From: Sphingobacteriaceae bacterium
GTDB taxonomy: Bacteria > Bacteroidota > Bacteroidia > Sphingobacteriales > Sphingobacteriaceae
Direction: 5' to 3'
Assembly: GCA_903644075.1 (NCBI GenBank)
Contig: CAHJXH010000004.1
Span: forward strand, 1 to 55,188
DNA length: 55,188 bases
Part shown: one piece after another, positions 19,592 through 25,795 of the stretch
Layout: every line of letters starts with the position of its first letter
Numbering within the stretch: position 1 is the stretch's first letter
Translations under genes and position numbers: made by a program
The notes under the pieces: generated by a model
Database searches by the model: none
Seen by the model: only the letters and a program-made list of their open reading frames with translations
What the model was told of the DNA's origin: nothing

Positions 19592-21307
19592 ATGCTGAAA
19601 TACCCCGTTGTCGCTCTTTTATTTGTTCTTGCTTTATCTACCGCAAATACAAAAGCACAAACACCTACAATACAAAGTAAAACCTACCCGCAAAATATTT
19701 TCCGTTACCCGCTCGATCTGCCGCCCAGCACTGCCGGCGGCTTCGGCGAGCTACGTGGTAACCACTTCCACTCTGGCTTAGATTTTCGCACCAACCAGCG
19801 CGAAGGCTACCCGGTGCATGCAGTTTACGATGGTTATATCTCGCGCTTAAGGGTACAGTTCGGCGGCTTTGGTAATGCGTTATATATCACGCACCCCAAC
19901 GGTTACACTTCGGTATATGGCCACCTGCAAAGGTTCAGCCCTGAGATATTACAGGTATTGCGCGAACAACAACGCATTCAGCAAAAGGATCTGGTTGATA
20001 TCAGCCTTACCCCTATGCAGCTCCCGGTTTATAAAGGGCAGATTGTGGCATGGTCGGGCAACACAGGTGGCTCAGCCGGCCCGCATTTGCACTTTGAGTT
20101 GCGCGATAGTGAGAATGAGCAAACCATCAATGCACAACTGTTCGGCTTAACCATTCCGGATCAGGTACCTCCTACTATCTCGGCAATGGCTATTTACAAA
20201 TTAAACGGCAATCCCTTTAGCGAGAAAACAGCGCATAACTTTTACCCTGTGGCAGGAGCAAATGGTCATTATCATTTGGTAAACCCACAAGTCCTGGAAA
20301 TTGGCAACGATGCCGGTTTGGGTATTGCCTGTGTTGATCAAAACAGCGCATCAGCTAATCGTAACGGTGCCTACTCTATCGAAATAAAGTTAGATGGCAC
20401 TACCATTTACACCATGGCAATGGAACGTTTCGCCTTTGATCAAACGCATGCCATTAACGCTTATATCGACTATCCAACAGCGCAAACCACCGGGCGCATG
20501 ATCCAGAAGTGCTTTATAATGCCGGGTAGCAAAATCACCATCTACCCGCAATCTGTAAACCGTGGTATTATTAAATTAACTGACGATGCCGTGCATGATG
20601 TTGAGTATGTAGTAAAAGACGTTGCCGGTAACACATCAACCTTAGCAGTTAAAGTGAAGGCTGGTCCGGAAAGTAAAACCATTGCGGCACAACCTGCTGC
20701 GGGTACAATCCGCTTCCATTACGATCAAACTAATGTGTTTACCAACGATAATCTGAAAATCACAATTGCACCGGGAAACCTATACGATGATCTGGATTTT
20801 AGCTTTGCTAAACTGCCTAAACATGTTGGGGCTTACTCGGCCACGTACCGTTTGCATAACCGTTTAACGCCAATTCACGATCAGTTTGATGTTTGGATTA
20901 AGCCCGACAGTACTATCGGCAAATTGGTTGATAAAGCCGTTATTGTAGGTGCCGAAGATGCCATTTACGAGGATGGTTTTGTGAAAGCCCATGCCAAAGG
21001 ATTTGGTGATGTGTACGTTAGGGGTGATACCGAAGCGCCATTTATCCACCCATTAAATATTATTAATGGTGGAAGTATGGCTCGAAAACCAAAAATTTCC
21101 TTTAAAATTGGCGACAATTTATCGGGCATTAAATCTTACCTCGGCAAAATTGATGGCCAGTGGGTGCTGATGGAATGGGATTTTAAAACAAAGATCCTAA
21201 ACTATACCTTTGACACCAGCATTACCCCCGGTAAGCATAAACTCGAATTAACAGTTACAGACAATAAAGATAACGCGGCTACATACACCGCCGATTTTTA
21301 CAGATAA
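19592..21307 (+). CDS. M23 family metallopeptidase, secreted
   Basis: 571 residues with a signal peptide (about 1-22). The LytM-type domain occupies about 45-170. Zinc ligands are His60 and Asp64 (FHSGLDF) and His165 in GPHLHFELRD, with the catalytic His163. The remaining 400 residues are beta-rich with Ig-like character (DNLSGIKSYLGKIDGQWVLMEW, ending DNKDNAATYTADFYR). It should cut peptidoglycan peptides in the periplasm. Its stop shares one base with the ATG of bcp (TAATG), so translation is coupled. Confidence 0.9.
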   Translation: MLKYPVVALLFVLALSTANTKAQTPTIQSKTYPQNIFRYPLDLPPSTAGGFGELRGNHFHSGLDFRTNQREGYPVHAVYDGYISRLRVQFGGFGNALYITHPNGYTSVYGHLQRFSPEILQVLREQQRIQQKDLVDISLTPMQLPVYKGQIVAWSGNTGGSAGPHLHFELRDSENEQTINAQLFGLTIPDQVPPTISAMAIYKLNGNPFSEKTAHNFYPVAGANGHYHLVNPQVLEIGNDAGLGIACVDQNSASANRNGAYSIEIKLDGTTIYTMAMERFAFDQTHAINAYIDYPTAQTTGRMIQKCFIMPGSKITIYPQSVNRGIIKLTDDAVHDVEYVVKDVAGNTSTLAVKVKAGPESKTIAAQPAAGTIRFHYDQTNVFTNDNLKITIAPGNLYDDLDFSFAKLPKHVGAYSATYRLHNRLTPIHDQFDVWIKPDSTIGKLVDKAVIVGAEDAIYEDGFVKAHAKGFGDVYVRGDTEAPFIHPLNIINGGSMARKPKISFKIGDNLSGIKSYLGKIDGQWVLMEWDFKTKILNYTFDTSITPGKHKLELTVTDNKDNAATYTADFYR

Positions 21308-21771
21308 TGGCAACTTTAACAACAGGCACCAAAGCACCCGACTTTACCGCCAATGACCAAAACGGAAAAACAGTTTCTTTAGCAGACTTTAAAGGAAAAA
21401 CTACCATCCTTTATTTTTATCCAAAGGATGATACTCCGGGCTGCACAGCCGAAGCCTGCGACTTTAGGGACAACTACCAGTTTTTGAGCAGCCAGGGCTA
21501 CGAGGTAATTGGTGTGAGTGTTGATGATGAGAAATCGCACAAAAAATTCGAGACCAAATACAGCCTGCCTTTTACCCTGATTGCCGATGTTGACCACACC
21601 ATTGTGGAAGCTTATGGCGTTTGGGTGGAGAAAAATATGTACGGCAAAAAATATATGGGCGTTGCCCGCACCACTTTTATTATTGATGCTGAAGGCGTGA
21701 TTAGCAAGATCATCGAAAAAGTTGATACTAAAAATTCCTCTCAACAGGTGTTGGACCTGCTGAAGAACTAA
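21307..21771 (+). CDS. bcp: Thioredoxin-dependent thiol peroxidase (Bcp)
   Basis: 154 residues, a typical BCP/PrxQ length. The peroxidatic Cys46 and resolving Cys51 are in TPGCTAEACDFRD. The YFYPKDDTPGC stretch and the conserved VARTTFIID strand confirm the family. It reduces hydroperoxides in the cytoplasm using thioredoxin (trxA is at 36491). Start and stop overlap with the M23 gene by one base. Confidence 0.95.
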   Translation: MATLTTGTKAPDFTANDQNGKTVSLADFKGKTTILYFYPKDDTPGCTAEACDFRDNYQFLSSQGYEVIGVSVDDEKSHKKFETKYSLPFTLIADVDHTIVEAYGVWVEKNMYGKKYMGVARTTFIIDAEGVISKIIEKVDTKNSSQQVLDLLKN

Positions 21772-21800
21772 AATATTATATAACCAACCTTCCTTAATTA

Positions 21801-22646
21801 ATGACTACTGATATTTCTGAATTAAAAAATGTCGCGTCGCAAGTAAGACGCGATATTGTACGTATGGTACACGGTTGCCAGAGCGGCCACCCCGGCGGCT
21901 CTTTAGGCTGTACTGATTACCTGGTTGCCCTGTATTTCTCGGCAATGAAACACGACCCGAAGTTTAGCATGGATGGCATCGGCGAAGACCTGTTCTTTTT
22001 GTCGAACGGGCACATTTCTCCGGTATTTTATAGCGTACTGGCACATGCCGGTTATTTTGATAAAGCCGAGCTGGCTACCTTCCGTAAAATTGGAAGCCGC
22101 CTGCAAGGCCACCCTACTACACACGAGCATTTACCGGGCGTACGTATTGCCTCTGGTTCATTGGGCCAGGGTTTATCGGTTGCCATCGGTGCTGCACAAG
22201 CAAAAAAATTAAATAAAGACAGCAGCCTTGTTTTCACCCTGCATGGCGATGGTGAGTTACAGGAAGGCCAGATCTGGGAAGCGGCGATGTATGCCCCTCA
22301 CAATAAAGTTGATAACCTCATTGCTGCTATTGATGTTAACGGCCAGCAAATTGATGGTTCTACCAAAAATGTATTGTCATTAGGCGATCTGCATGCTAAG
22401 TGGGTTGCTTTCGGTTGGGATGTTCTGGAAGCAAAGGGTAATGATATGGAATCGCTGCTCGCTGTTTTAGCCGAAGCTAAAAGCCGCACCGGCCAGGGCA
22501 AACCAATTGTAATTCTATTACATACCGACATGGGTTATGGCGTAGATTTTATGATGGGAACCCACAAATGGCACGGTACCGCCCCTAACGATGCGCAACT
22601 GGCACAAGCTTTAGGACAGCTGGAAGAAACTTTGGGAGACTATTAA
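21801..22646 (+). CDS. Transketolase, N-terminal (thiamine diphosphate-binding) subunit
   Basis: 281 residues. The N-terminal transketolase half starts LKNVASQVRRDIVRMVHGCQSGHPGGSLG. The thiamine-diphosphate motif begins GDGELQEGQIWEA and ends with Asn in DVNGQQIDG. In the split form it pairs with a separate C-terminal subunit, here encoded 114 bases downstream. Together they work in the non-oxidative pentose phosphate pathway. The stop codon shares its last A with the palindromic element that separates the two subunit genes. Confidence 0.93.
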   Translation: MTTDISELKNVASQVRRDIVRMVHGCQSGHPGGSLGCTDYLVALYFSAMKHDPKFSMDGIGEDLFFLSNGHISPVFYSVLAHAGYFDKAELATFRKIGSRLQGHPTTHEHLPGVRIASGSLGQGLSVAIGAAQAKKLNKDSSLVFTLHGDGELQEGQIWEAAMYAPHNKVDNLIAAIDVNGQQIDGSTKNVLSLGDLHAKWVAFGWDVLEAKGNDMESLLAVLAEAKSRTGQGKPIVILLHTDMGYGVDFMMGTHKWHGTAPNDAQLAQALGQLEETLGDY

Positions 22647-22760
22647 ACCCCCTCCGACTCCCCCAAAGGGGGAGAGTTAAAAGACATTATTCGTAAAACC
22701 AGAATATTAAAACATTGCCCTAAAAGCCCCTCTCCTTTGGAGAGGGGTTGGGGAGAGGTT
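22646..22760. repeat. Bipartite GC-rich palindromic element, copy 1
   Basis: The element begins AACCCCCTCCGACTCCCCC and ends with a segment whose reverse complement begins AACCTCTCCCCAACCCC. It holds two hairpins (CTCCCCCAAAGGGGGAG and CCCCTCTCCTTTGGAGAGGGG) at the ends of an AT-rich centre. It runs exactly from the stop of the N-terminal transketolase gene to the ATG of the C-terminal one. Copy 2, at 31672-31765, has the same plan. Confidence 0.8.
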
Positions 22761-23720
22761 ATGAAAAAATACACTTACACAGATAAAAAAGATACCCGTT
22801 CGGGCTTTGGCGCCGGACTATTAGAAGCAGGTAAACGTAACGACCAGGTGGTTGCCCTTTGCGCCGACCTGATCGGCTCATTAAAAATGCAGGATTTTAT
22901 TGCTGCTTTCCCTGAGCGCTTTTTCCAAACCGGTATTGCAGAGGCTAATATGATGGGCATGGCTGCAGGTTTAACCATCGGTGGCAAAATTCCTTTCACA
23001 GGTACATTTGCAAATTTTTCAACCGGTAGGGTTTATGATCAGATCCGTCAGTCAATCGCTTATTCAAATAAAAACGTTAAGATCTGTGCTTCACACGCAG
23101 GTTTAACTTTGGGCGAAGACGGTGCAACACACCAGATCTTAGAAGACTTAGGCTTAATGAAAATGCTGCCCGGCATGACCGTAATTAACCCTTGCGATTA
23201 TAACCAGACTAAAGCGGCTACCATTGCCATTGCAGAATACGAGGGCCCTGTTTACTTACGTTTCGGCCGCCCGGTTGTGCCTATTTTTACAGATCCTGAT
23301 CAAAAATTTGAGATCGGTAAAGCTTGGATGGTGAACGAAGGTGCAGATGTGAGTATATTCGCAACAGGCCATTTGGTTTGGGAAGCGATACAAGCAGGTG
23401 AAAAGCTGGCTGAAGAAGGTATCGATGCCGAGATCATTAATATACACACCATTAAACCCTTAGATGCTGAAGCTATTTTAGCATCTGTACGTAAAACAGG
23501 TTGTGTGGTAACTGCCGAAGAGCATAACCGTTTAGGTGGCTTAGGTGATAGCGTTGCACAAGTGTTAGCAACTAAACTACCTACTCCGCAAGAGTATGTG
23601 GCTGTAGATGACAGCTTTGGCGAAAGTGGTACACCAGAGCAACTGATGACTAAATACGGTTTAGATGCTGCTCATATTGTTGCAGCTGCTAAACGTGCCA
23701 TCGCCAGAAAAACAAAGTAG
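22761..23720 (+). CDS. Transketolase, C-terminal subunit
   Basis: 319 residues from the ATG at 22761 (MKKYTYTDKKDTRSGFG). It carries the pyrimidine-binding half of transketolase: FFQTGIAEANMMGMAAGLTIGG (with the catalytic Glu of GIAE) and ASHAGLTLGEDGATHQ, followed by the C-terminal domain (VSIFATGHLVWEA, GCVVTAEEHNRLGGLG). An open frame back to a TTG at 22737 translates only the GC-rich repeat and was rejected. The ATG follows the element directly, so the leader, and perhaps the promoter, comes from the repeat. Confidence 0.93.
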   Translation: MKKYTYTDKKDTRSGFGAGLLEAGKRNDQVVALCADLIGSLKMQDFIAAFPERFFQTGIAEANMMGMAAGLTIGGKIPFTGTFANFSTGRVYDQIRQSIAYSNKNVKICASHAGLTLGEDGATHQILEDLGLMKMLPGMTVINPCDYNQTKAATIAIAEYEGPVYLRFGRPVVPIFTDPDQKFEIGKAWMVNEGADVSIFATGHLVWEAIQAGEKLAEEGIDAEIINIHTIKPLDAEAILASVRKTGCVVTAEEHNRLGGLGDSVAQVLATKLPTPQEYVAVDDSFGESGTPEQLMTKYGLDAAHIVAAAKRAIARKTK

Positions 23721-23761
23721 GCTAATAAATGCTTTATAGGTTAAACTATTAAATAAAATAA

Positions 23762-24316
23762 ATGTCTGCACAGGTTGAAGATGCTGAAATACTAAGCAAG
23801 TTCCAGGACGTAAAAACCTGGAACGAAGCCTTTAATCTTTTGTTGAAGAAATATCAGCAGAAAATTTACTGGCACGTTAGGCGCATGGTTATTGATCATG
23901 ACGATGCCGACGACCTGGTACAGGACGTTTTTATTAAGGTTTGGAAAAACCTCGAAGGCTTTCGCTGTGATGCCCAGCTTTACACCTGGATGTACCGCAT
24001 TGCCACTAACGAATGTATTACCTTCTTAAACAAAAAGAAGCAAAAAAATAACATTTCGTTAGATGAGATTTCGTACGAACTGGCCGATACCCTTGCTTCA
24101 TCATCTTATTTTGATGGCGATAAAGCACAAATGAAATTACAACAAGCTTTGCTTACCCTGCCGGATAAGCAAAAGCTTGTTTTTAACATGAAATACTACG
24201 ACGACATGAAATACGAAGAAATGTCGGAAGTGCTGGGAACCAGTGTGGGTGCTTTAAAGGCATCATTTCACCTGGCCGTAAAAAAAATCGAAAGTTTTCT
24301 GTTATCTAATGATTAA
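23762..24316 (+). CDS. ECF-type RNA polymerase sigma factor
   Basis: 184 residues. Region 2 covers about 18-90 (YQQKIYWHVRRMVIDHDDADDLVQDVFIKVWKN, then TWMYRIATNECITFL). Region 4 covers about 118-180 (LLTLPDKQKLVFNMKYYDDMKYEEMSEVLG, then VGALKASFHLAVKKI). No extra C-terminal domain is present. It directs RNA polymerase to an unknown regulon. It begins 41 bases after transketolase and is followed after 51 bases by a repeat-bearing membrane protein that has the topology of an anti-sigma factor, then by a small periplasmic protein. Confidence 0.93.
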   Translation: MSAQVEDAEILSKFQDVKTWNEAFNLLLKKYQQKIYWHVRRMVIDHDDADDLVQDVFIKVWKNLEGFRCDAQLYTWMYRIATNECITFLNKKKQKNNISLDEISYELADTLASSSYFDGDKAQMKLQQALLTLPDKQKLVFNMKYYDDMKYEEMSEVLGTSVGALKASFHLAVKKIESFLLSND

Positions 24317-24367
24317 TTTTAATTTTTGCTTTAAACCTTTGCTCCCTATTTATATCTATAATACGAT

Positions 24368-25276
24368 ATGACAAGCGATATAGACAATAAAGAATGGCCA
24401 GATGAATATCCGTCACTAAAACAGGTTAACCCAAATAACCCGTTCACAGTGCCCGGCGGCTACTTTAATGAGCTGGAAGGGAGGATTATGTCTGTCATTA
24501 ATTTAAACGAGCTACCATCGTCGCAGCCATTTGCTGTACCCGAAAATTATTTCGAGGAATTAAGCAGCAATATTGTAAGCAGGATCAATATTGAAGAAAA
24601 ATTAAATATAGATGAGCAAAACTTCATTGTCCCTCAAAATTATTTTGAGAACATGGAGCTGCAAATCAAAAGCCGTATTGCTGTTGAGGATGTTTTAAAA
24701 GCAGATGAGCAAACGTTCAGCGTTCCCCAAAATTACTTTGAGGATATGGCCGATCAGATTAATAGCCGCATCGCTATTGAAGAAGCCTTAAAAGCAGATG
24801 AACAAAGCTTTGCTGTACCTCAAAACTATTTTGAGGATATGGCCGCACAGATCACCAGCCGCATTACTGTTGAAGAAGCCCTGAATACCGAGACACCATT
24901 TACAGTTCCTGATCAATACTTTGAGCAGTTGAACCGTAAAATATCAAACCAGGTTGCAGGTTTAGAAGTTGCTAACCGCAGAGGAGTGATCAGAAGGCTG
25001 GTATCAACCGCTGCATTTAAATATGCGACCGCTGCCTGCTTTACACTGATAGTTGGCGCCGCTATCTTTATCGGCGAAGTCAATAGCCCTTCTTCTAAAC
25101 ACAATAGCTCATATTTGCACAAAGCACTTTCTGATGTGCCCGATAATGCTATCGAAAGCTATTTACAATTGCACATGGATGCCGGCGATACCAGGAGTGT
25201 GATAGATGATGCCGACAAAGGCCAAATAAATAATTCAAGCACCGATGATCTGGCAGATTATCTGAGCAATAACTAA
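24368..25276 (+). CDS. Putative anti-sigma membrane protein with six F-x-VP-x-x-YF repeats
   Basis: 302 residues with no signal peptide. Residues 25-197 hold six tandem repeats of about 29-31 residues, each with the core F-x-VP-x-x-YF-x-x-(L/M) followed by I-x-S-R-I. The VP-YF cores are VPGGYF, VPENYF, VPQNYF three times, and VPDQYF. A basic stretch (NRRGVIRRL) precedes one membrane helix at about 217-237, which puts the repeats in the cytoplasm and the last 65 residues in the periplasm. Position after an ECF sigma gene and this topology suggest an anti-sigma factor or scaffold; no zinc-type HxxxCxxC motif is present. Single copies of the VPxxYF motif occur in other Bacteroidota membrane proteins of this context; six tandem copies look unusual. 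Confidence 0.75.
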   Translation: MTSDIDNKEWPDEYPSLKQVNPNNPFTVPGGYFNELEGRIMSVINLNELPSSQPFAVPENYFEELSSNIVSRINIEEKLNIDEQNFIVPQNYFENMELQIKSRIAVEDVLKADEQTFSVPQNYFEDMADQINSRIAIEEALKADEQSFAVPQNYFEDMAAQITSRITVEEALNTETPFTVPDQYFEQLNRKISNQVAGLEVANRRGVIRRLVSTAAFKYATAACFTLIVGAAIFIGEVNSPSSKHNSSYLHKALSDVPDNAIESYLQLHMDAGDTRSVIDDADKGQINNSSTDDLADYLSNN

Positions 25277-25285
25277 TAACCCGGA

Positions 25286-25795
25286 ATGAATACGCTGATG
25301 AAATATCTTTTTTTTGTGCTGCTGCTTTTTTGTATGCGGTATGAAACGAGTGCGCAGCCCGGCTCCCTTCCATATCGTAGTACCACCGCGCCTAACTACA
25401 AGCCAAATTTTAACAGCCAAAATAACAACAGGCCAAATGGCATGCGTAAGCTTGATGCCGTTAGAAACGATTACATTAATAAAAGGTTGAACCTGACACC
25501 GGAAGAAGCAGACCGCTTTTGGCCTGTTTATAACCAATACCAAACAGAATTAGGTAATGTTTTGCGCCAGCGCCGCATCAATAATTCGAGCCCGCAGGCC
25601 AATGGCATTGACCAGGTTGACCGTGATATTAATTACGAACAACAGATCCTATCGATCAGGAAACGCTATAAAGACGAGTTTCTAAAAATACTCCCACCCG
25701 AAAAGGTAAGCTTACTTTACAAAAGCGAACGCGAGTTTAAAGATGAGTTAATTAAACAACTCCGCGAACGTAGAAGCCAGGATCCGCAGCGGTAG
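25286..25795 (+). CDS. Periplasmic helical protein, Spy/CnrX-like, of the sigma module
   Basis: 169 residues with a signal peptide (MKYLFFVLLLFCMRYETSAQ). Low-complexity residues (Asn, Ser, Pro rich) follow, then helices: NKRLNLTPEEADRFWPVYNQYQTELGNVLR and QQILSIRKRYKDEFLKILPPEKVSLLYKSEREFKDELIKQLRER. The LTPEEADRFWPVYNQY motif recalls LTxxQ-type periplasmic helical hairpins and Bacteroidota proteins labelled sensors of ECF-type sigma factors. It follows the repeat protein after 9 bases, so the three genes read as one module. An internal ATG at 25298 is an equally good start. Confidence 0.78.
   Translation: MNTLMKYLFFVLLLFCMRYETSAQPGSLPYRSTTAPNYKPNFNSQNNNRPNGMRKLDAVRNDYINKRLNLTPEEADRFWPVYNQYQTELGNVLRQRRINNSSPQANGIDQVDRDINYEQQILSIRKRYKDEFLKILPPEKVSLLYKSEREFKDELIKQLRERRSQDPQR

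Follow-up and report, generated by a model that had tools for sequence, protein, structure and literature searches.

A three-gene operon conserved across Bacteroidia groups an ECF sigma factor with a repeat-bearing candidate anti-sigma factor and a Spy-like protein

Positions 23762–25795 of a 55,188-nucleotide stretch of Sphingobacteriaceae DNA (contig CAHJXH010000004.1; the whole stretch is hereafter called the window) encode an extracytoplasmic function (ECF) sigma factor (protein 1), a single-pass membrane protein with six tandem repeats (protein 2, the repeat protein) and an exported helical protein (protein 3), and we find that this three-gene set is a conserved operon across Bacteroidia. 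Judged from sequence, the six-repeat array is an expanded form of a protein family that commonly has one module. By analogy with a described system, the repeat protein is best read as a multi-copy variant of a putative membrane anti-sigma family, and we consider it moderately probable that the whole is a trans-envelope stress module in which sigma-binding repeats on a membrane anti-sigma factor, feedback from a Spy-like protein and a self-induced negative loop would act together. The module seems to be a widespread envelope-stress response in the class (a match to the sigma factor at E ≤ 1e-40 occurs in 143 of 198 Bacteroidia genomes, the window's own included), and its proposed anti-sigma family is absent from the copies of Pfam and NCBIfam that we searched. 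An earlier reading of this DNA, the original prediction, had described the three proteins and missed both a promoter-like element at 24331–24360 and the class-wide conservation of the operon.

The operon and its repeat protein

The three genes lie on one strand with intergenic gaps of 51 and 9 bases, and open reading frames (ORFs), Pfam matches and hydrophobicity agree with the original description of the products: an ECF sigma factor, a protein that crosses the membrane once, and a helical exported protein bearing LTPEEADRFWPVYNQY. Protein 1 is, by its domain matches, an ECF sigma factor: Pfam region 2 (PF04542, 63.6 bits, 1.5e-17) and region 4_2 (PF08281, 51 bits, 1.1e-13) both exceed their cut-offs, as does NCBIfam TIGR02937 (103.5 bits, cut-off 42.9). 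It falls below the curated cut-off of NCBIfam TIGR02985, Bacteroides sigma-70 family 1 (105.1 vs 126.4 bits).

Six strict F-x-[VIL]-P-x-x-Y-F motifs stand in protein 2 at residues 26, 55, 86, 117, 148 and 178, giving spacings of 29, 31, 31, 31 and 30; 20,000 shuffles of the protein produced a mean of 0.0005 motifs and a maximum of 1, which bears out the tandem array with 29–31 spacing reported originally. The protein has one hydrophobic segment (residues 220–238), preceded by four K/R within 15 residues and followed by two, and because this bias fits the positive-inside rule the repeats are predicted to be cytoplasmic, in agreement with the earlier placement; among seven family members checked for the same bias, one (L126) points the opposite way and one (L088) is tied. 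As had also been noted, the HxxxCxxC motif of zinc anti-sigma (ZAS) factors is absent from protein 2, which has no Cys or His N-terminal to the membrane segment. No FecR domain match was obtained in Pfam at E ≤ 1, and neither protein 2 nor a three-repeat relative and two one-repeat relatives reached any Pfam or NCBIfam cut-off. Weak, sub-cut-off Pfam matches to HSBP1 were dismissed as an artefact of composition or periodicity, and a match to designed 31-residue toroids (dTor, PDB; phmmer E 1e-5) was dismissed as probably reflecting a shared 31-residue period. A repeat-bearing anti-sigma factor was not found in the literature searched, which covered few subscription journals.

A one-genome-per-species scan with protein 2 returned 55 loci, comprising 49 from Mucilaginibacter, five from other Bacteroidetes assemblies and one from Pedobacter. 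The sigma gene lies 5′ of the repeat gene in 54 of these 55 relatives (the remaining contig starts inside the repeat gene) and the protein 3 gene lies 3′ of it in all 55; the sigma factors are 77–94% identical to that of the window, and identity of the repeat protein goes down to 27%. A phylum-wide search with the Pedobacter member found matches in 19 of 148 genomes, every one in the class of the window, and all 22 matches were flanked by both neighbour genes. A class-wide set of 100 loci was fetched by the sigma factor alone. Each comes from a different genome and was picked by hand from the match listing; the six Sphingobacteriaceae sites and any site close to a contig end were excluded, and of the weaker sites some were used. 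The middle gene was taken, blind to the motif, as the longest ORF starting no more than 350 bases behind sigma (at L092, missed by this rule, the ORF was entered by hand). A protein 3 homologue is present at all 100 of these loci (weakest E 5e-11), and a repeat hidden Markov model (HMM), trained on regular-expression matches from the same proteins that it scored, was passed at 97, the other three showing a degenerate motif by eye.

The converse search, with a 28-residue unit profile over 119 genomes that overlap with those of the sigma scan (so the counts are not independent), listed 72 matches at E < 1e-3, of which 71 adjoin a sigma gene, 69 by printed coordinates compared by eye and two by fetched sequence. 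Linkage of repeat homologues to ECF genes, which the original prediction had set in advance as a test, is thus observed, and the refuting condition of that prediction, homologues located for the most part apart from sigma genes, does not apply to the matches examined. Outside the class, the module was found in one of 46 genomes (G018), a thin sample, and a second match there, to an ScpB-like protein (G027), was taken as chance. In a Bacteroidaceae-like family (an assignment inferred from the sequences), sigma and a protein 3 homologue occur at 35 of 35 loci, and the one-repeat proteins of this family, ~115–149 aa long, carry FxVPxGYF; the ORF rule chose the wrong ORF at five loci of this set (L200, L201, L205, L206 and L214). 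Genome G270 has two modules, a main one (L180) and a diverged one (L181; G270:C3, 3026–4720) composed of sigma, a YKTPEGFL-type regulator and a Spy-like gene, the latter module being followed by a further ORF that is Spy-like by eye.

Repeat number varies widely among these proteins. By HMM count, the window and its 55 relatives include one protein with three repeats (Pedobacter), 19 with four, 11 with five, 14 with six, nine with seven and two with eight (the count for L029 is a lower bound, its contig starting inside the gene); the 100 class-wide loci include three with none, 59 with one, 14 with two, seven with three, 11 with four, three with five and three with six. The range in Mucilaginibacter is four to eight and the commonest class-wide state is one, so the array described in the original prediction is real in the window but is not the commonest form. 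Mapped onto a 112-row sigma tree, possession of four or more repeats requires nine changes, of which at least six are forced by well-supported branches; arrays have therefore grown or shrunk repeatedly. Alignments A1 and A2 used 65 of 88 and 43 of 86 prepared rows, window included.

Internal repeats are alike within a protein, with identities of up to 96% (L041) and of 65–77% among repeats 3–5 of the window, which argues that arrays grow by tandem duplication. The repeat-region DNA of the window has a 93-base period, and an interval of 31 accounts for 155 of 237 intervals across 56 proteins. The first, internal and last copies of the Mucilaginibacter set differ in consensus, a distinction that is weaker class-wide. 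NP precedes F in 80% of 56 first copies, 0% of 181 internal copies and 0% of 56 last copies in the Mucilaginibacter set, and in 32% of 63 single copies class-wide; in class-wide multi-copy proteins the shares are 27% for first (n = 22), 9% for internal (n = 45) and 27% for last copies (n = 22). The L10-type residue of the Mucilaginibacter set is found in 99% of 181 internal vs 66% of 56 first copies; conservation of P, Y and F in the copies is partly forced by the search pattern.

A promoter-like element between the sigma and repeat genes

The original prediction had proposed a search for a sigma-specific promoter upstream of 23762. None was found there: no clear promoter emerged when the DNA upstream of sigma was screened for 4-mer pairs occurring more often than expected, and a motif scan of the window likewise did not yield the promoter of the sigma gene itself. 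A site with three mismatches at 23741–23769 was rejected because it overlaps the sigma start codon; at that level the window holds 35 matches against a shuffle average of 24.9, mostly chance. Instead, the scan placed an ECF-type element, TTAAACC-N16-ATCTATA, between the sigma gene and the repeat gene, ending 7 bases before the ATG of the latter.

The motif was first spotted by eye in class-wide upstream regions, as TTAAACC followed ~16 bases on by GTCTAA. TTAAACC occurs 5′ of sigma in 29 of 100 class-wide loci (100 shuffles: mean 2.8, maximum 7) and both boxes occur in 21 of 100 (shuffles 0.59, maximum 3), in a test that used the same sequences as the discovery; a motif of the transketolase C-terminus stands 5′ of sigma in 42 of 100 and co-occurs with TTAAACC in two. 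The gap test used other sequences. Here the window and each of the 54 relatives that have both genes carry TTAAACC (55 of 55, where 50 shuffles predict 1.1); with the gaps delimited by the ORF starts used, 53 of the 55 contain the second box. Across 26 Mucilaginibacter genomes, a strict form with a permitted gap of 11–14 gave 20 matches vs 1 in the reversed control; all 20 share one of the four allowed spacings, and 19 sit 1–11 bases before a repeat gene. A slightly looser form matched nine times in six Mucilaginibacter genomes (control 0), with six of the matches at this operon by coordinates or sequence. Two further families have the motif between the sigma and repeat genes (L239, G226:C354; L233, G173:C17).

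Taken as sequence evidence, these figures are a strong sign that the element is an ECF-type promoter for the putative anti-sigma and Spy-like genes in Mucilaginibacter; because it stands so near the ATG, it suggests a nearly leaderless message. We infer that it is read by this operon's sigma factor, so that sigma would induce its own regulator.

Such a promoter motif also makes the regulon accessible to computation. Over 17 genomes, a small set of which some were chosen because the motif is present at their sigma locus, the looser form TTAAACC-N15/16-GTCTAA gave 33 matches vs 14 in the reversed control, and several of these precede genes whose products begin, by eye, like exported proteins. 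A Pfam scan of the first 90 residues of such candidates assigned a G099 protein to DUF4136 (a similar-looking protein encoded in the genome of the window has no Pfam match) and, just below the cut-off, identified an OmpH-like protein in G122; a further candidate in G025 is Spy-like by eye and without a Pfam match. Look-alike genes for a DUF4136-type and a glycine-rich exported protein are preceded by the motif in both G000 (L226 and L236) and G099 (L225 and L235), and the DUF4136-type and glycine-rich exported genes of these two Mucilaginibacter genomes are candidates for a shared regulon.

Known systems, proposed mechanism and alternatives

The anti-sigma role that the original prediction gave the middle protein is likely by analogy with CirY/CirZ-Spy of Phocaeicola vulgatus, as described in parts of PMC13114119 (2026). 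The gene order of that system (sigma, anti-sigma, Spy-like) is the same as in the window, spy is co-transcribed and the system is autoregulated; deletion of cirZ raises cirY, spy and two downstream genes most strongly, and it is because this deletion derepresses a module of the same gene order that we consider the role likely. The same partial account places a second sigma/anti-sigma/Spy locus in the P. vulgatus genome, which parallels the two modules of G270, and reports that insertions in genes of the system were not under-represented during colitis, where the regulon is induced and not needed; its section on CirZ names no repeat or motif. Bacteroidaceae-like members have one repeat in ~115–149 aa, whereas the protein of the window has six in 302 aa. 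The Bacteroides Reo/Dma anti-sigma factors, according to excerpts of PMC13088901, are likewise Bacteroidota anti-sigma factors with one transmembrane helix, which lies between an N-terminal sigma-binding part and a long tether ending in a C-terminal beta-barrel; membership of protein 2 in this group was rejected, since just 64 residues follow its membrane segment. Two other identities of protein 2 were rejected, as a zinc anti-sigma factor (no HxxxCxxC, no Pfam anti-sigma domain) and as a FecR-type regulator (no FecR domain match). Class I ZAS factors and RseA/MucA are membrane anti-sigma factors paired with ECF sigma factors.

The likeness to CnrYXH of Cupriavidus metallidurans, also proposed originally, holds for the layout (cytoplasmic ECF sigma factor, single-pass anti-sigma factor, periplasmic helical protein) and not for the details of protein 3. 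CnrX sits in the membrane and uses His residues to bind metal; in CnrY, a single short stretch binds sigma. The start of protein 3 resembles a signal peptide by eye; the protein shows by eye no membrane anchor or other hydrophobic segment, and contains no His; a CnrX-type metal site is unlikely because His is lacking, and identity as a CnrX-type metal sensor was rejected. With CpxP, Spy and ZraP it shares predicted export, a helical make-up and an L-T-x-x-E/Q-type motif, and differs from them in being coupled to an ECF sigma operon. A joint model of protein 3 with the periplasmic tail of protein 2 (pTM 0.64) was matched by VIA-align to CnrX first (Z 6.0), then CpxP (Z 4.8) and Spy (Z 3.8), all weak, with 11–13% identity in the alignments. 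Protein 3 of the window had no Metal_resist or ZraP match in Pfam or NCBIfam at E ≤ 1 and reached no cut-off; nor did two relatives, though the Pedobacter relative had sub-threshold matches, to Metal_resist at E 0.028 and to ZraP at 18.7 bits against a cut-off of 200. The description of protein 3 as Spy-like draws on the motif and these weak fold matches.

In the mechanism that we favour, the repeat protein would be a membrane-anchored anti-sigma factor that restrains sigma, as CirZ appears to. Since proteins with a single repeat are the most frequent, the sigma-binding element is most naturally sought in the repeat itself; each copy may be a short element of this kind, in which F-x-V-P is extended and an amphipathic helix begins at YF. 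Sigma and the cytoplasmic part of protein 2 were modelled with AlphaFold2 as a single chain, glycine replacing the intervening stops. Entries for sigma-E/RseA and AlgU/MucA match the sigma portion of this model; in the repeat portion a helix begins precisely at the Y of every YF pair, six in all, and the linkers between the helices are of low confidence. One element would suffice in most species, Mucilaginibacter having multiplied it by tandem duplication, and more repeats would give higher avidity or capacity for sigma. The CpxP/Spy-like protein would serve as a periplasmic chaperone and probably as a feedback sensor acting through the short tail of the repeat protein. Under stress, released sigma would fire the promoter between the sigma and anti-sigma genes, and the resulting increase in anti-sigma and Spy-like protein would close a negative feedback loop.

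Several observations weigh against this reading. The AlphaFold2 model contains no confident contact between sigma and the repeats (pTM 0.26, mean pLDDT 59), the fold matches of protein 3 lie within the chance range for helical bundles, and Foldseek returned no match to the protein 3 model at E ≤ 0.001. Kinship with CirZ is drawn from gene order and from the one-repeat Bacteroidaceae-like members, not from the sequence of CirZ. The repeat profile was built from sigma-linked members and may miss unlinked ones, and the sole exception among its 72 matches, at G182:C111 (L275, 1842–2925), is a two-repeat gene with a Spy-like partner and no adjoining sigma gene, an ORF of another kind (497 aa) lying upstream. 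For the promoter, the 55 gap sequences come from close relatives, and the strict motif is present in 19 of the 26 Mucilaginibacter genomes and absent from seven. Class-wide, TTAAACC is absent upstream of sigma in 71 of 100 loci and occurs in just nine of 99 gaps between sigma and regulator; in the Bacteroidaceae-like family the two-box motif upstream of sigma is absent from 24 of 30 loci and present in six, a count made with no shuffle control.

In a more specific form, which we hold only tentatively, the array would be a multivalent sigma sponge in which each repeat holds one sigma, or repeats raise avidity stepwise; species would tune threshold and gain through repeat number, and sigma would induce the sponge. 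Rather doubtful is the idea that sigma binding falls to one repeat alone, either the first (of NPFTVPxGYF type) or the last (next to the membrane), with internal copies that expand neutrally as spacers or avidity helpers. It would account for the differing consensus of first, internal and last copies in Mucilaginibacter, for the multiplication and mutual resemblance of internal copies and for one copy being the commonest state, but in the Mucilaginibacter set the hydrophobic positions of internal copies are no less strictly conserved than those of first copies, and the positional types are less marked in class-wide multi-copy proteins. Positional repeat types inside one protein, and the many ECF candidates of genome G000 (39 at first look, 17 of those scored), would also suit a protein that acts as a hub for several ECF sigma factors and restrains each through a different repeat type. 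We consider such a hub very improbable, the internal copies being homogenised and not diversified within species and the operon being tied to one orthologous sigma factor (of 143 genomes with any match at E ≤ 1e-40, 138 have exactly one).

That the element TTAAACC-N16-ATCTATA belongs to another ECF sigma factor, making the circuit one of cross-regulation and not of feedback, seems unlikely to us. ECF promoters in general have AAC and TC boxes, the looser motif precedes other genes too, and most class-wide loci lack the element in both the sigma-upstream and the gap positions; the strict motif is nevertheless almost private to this operon, a similar motif precedes the orthologous sigma gene in other families, and upstream of sigma that motif alternates with the transketolase end. 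The effect of the repeat protein could also be the reverse of restraint: FecR-type regulators can hold a sigma factor at the membrane for activation, the layout alone gives no sign of effect, and neither contact nor inhibition was seen in this analysis. A role of protein 2 as a positive tether or co-activator is nonetheless highly improbable, since it has no FecR domain, a sigma-driven promoter before the regulator and Spy-like gene fits feedback inhibition, and deletion of cirZ increases expression of cirY and spy (PMC13114119, same partial account). If the repeat protein is an anti-sigma factor, as we favour, the series of one to eight copies would amount to a natural experiment on how sequestration stoichiometry sets a stress response, and the motif, if it is the sigma-binding element, would offer a sequence handle for cognate anti-sigma genes across the class.

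Feature coordinates and flanking genes

Table 1 Positions in the window of the three genes, the repeats, the promoter-like element and one flanking gene
Feature	Position	Strand	Basis
ECF sigma factor gene (protein 1), 184 aa	23762..24316	+	ORF and Pfam/NCBIfam matches
Putative ECF-type promoter element TTAAACC-N16-ATCTATA, sigma/repeat gene gap	24331..24360	+	motif search
Single-pass membrane protein gene (protein 2), 302 aa, proposed anti-sigma factor	24368..25276	+	ORF, motif, hydrophobicity
Repeat 1, residues 26–54, 'first' type NPFTVPxGYF	24443..24529	+	
Repeat 2, residues 55–85	24530..24622	+	
Repeat 3, residues 86–116	24623..24715	+	
Repeat 4, residues 117–147	24716..24808	+	
Repeat 5, residues 148–177; 77% identical to repeat 4 across 26 positions	24809..24898	+	
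Repeat 6, from residue 178, 'last' membrane-proximal type; C-terminal limit approximate	24899..24985	+	
Transmembrane segment of repeat protein, residues 220–238	25025..25081	+	
Periplasmic tail of repeat protein, 64 residues; partly helical in predicted model	25082..25273	+	
Exported helical protein gene (protein 3), CpxP/Spy-like, 169 aa	25286..25795	+	
C-terminal transketolase subunit ORF, directly 5′ of sigma; start codon uncertain	22737..23720	+	context

The DNA 5′ of sigma at many Mucilaginibacter loci (L003–L057) ends like the peroxiredoxin gene of the window (SSQQVLDLLK, by eye). In the window itself (21307–23761), two transketolase genes separate the peroxiredoxin gene from sigma.

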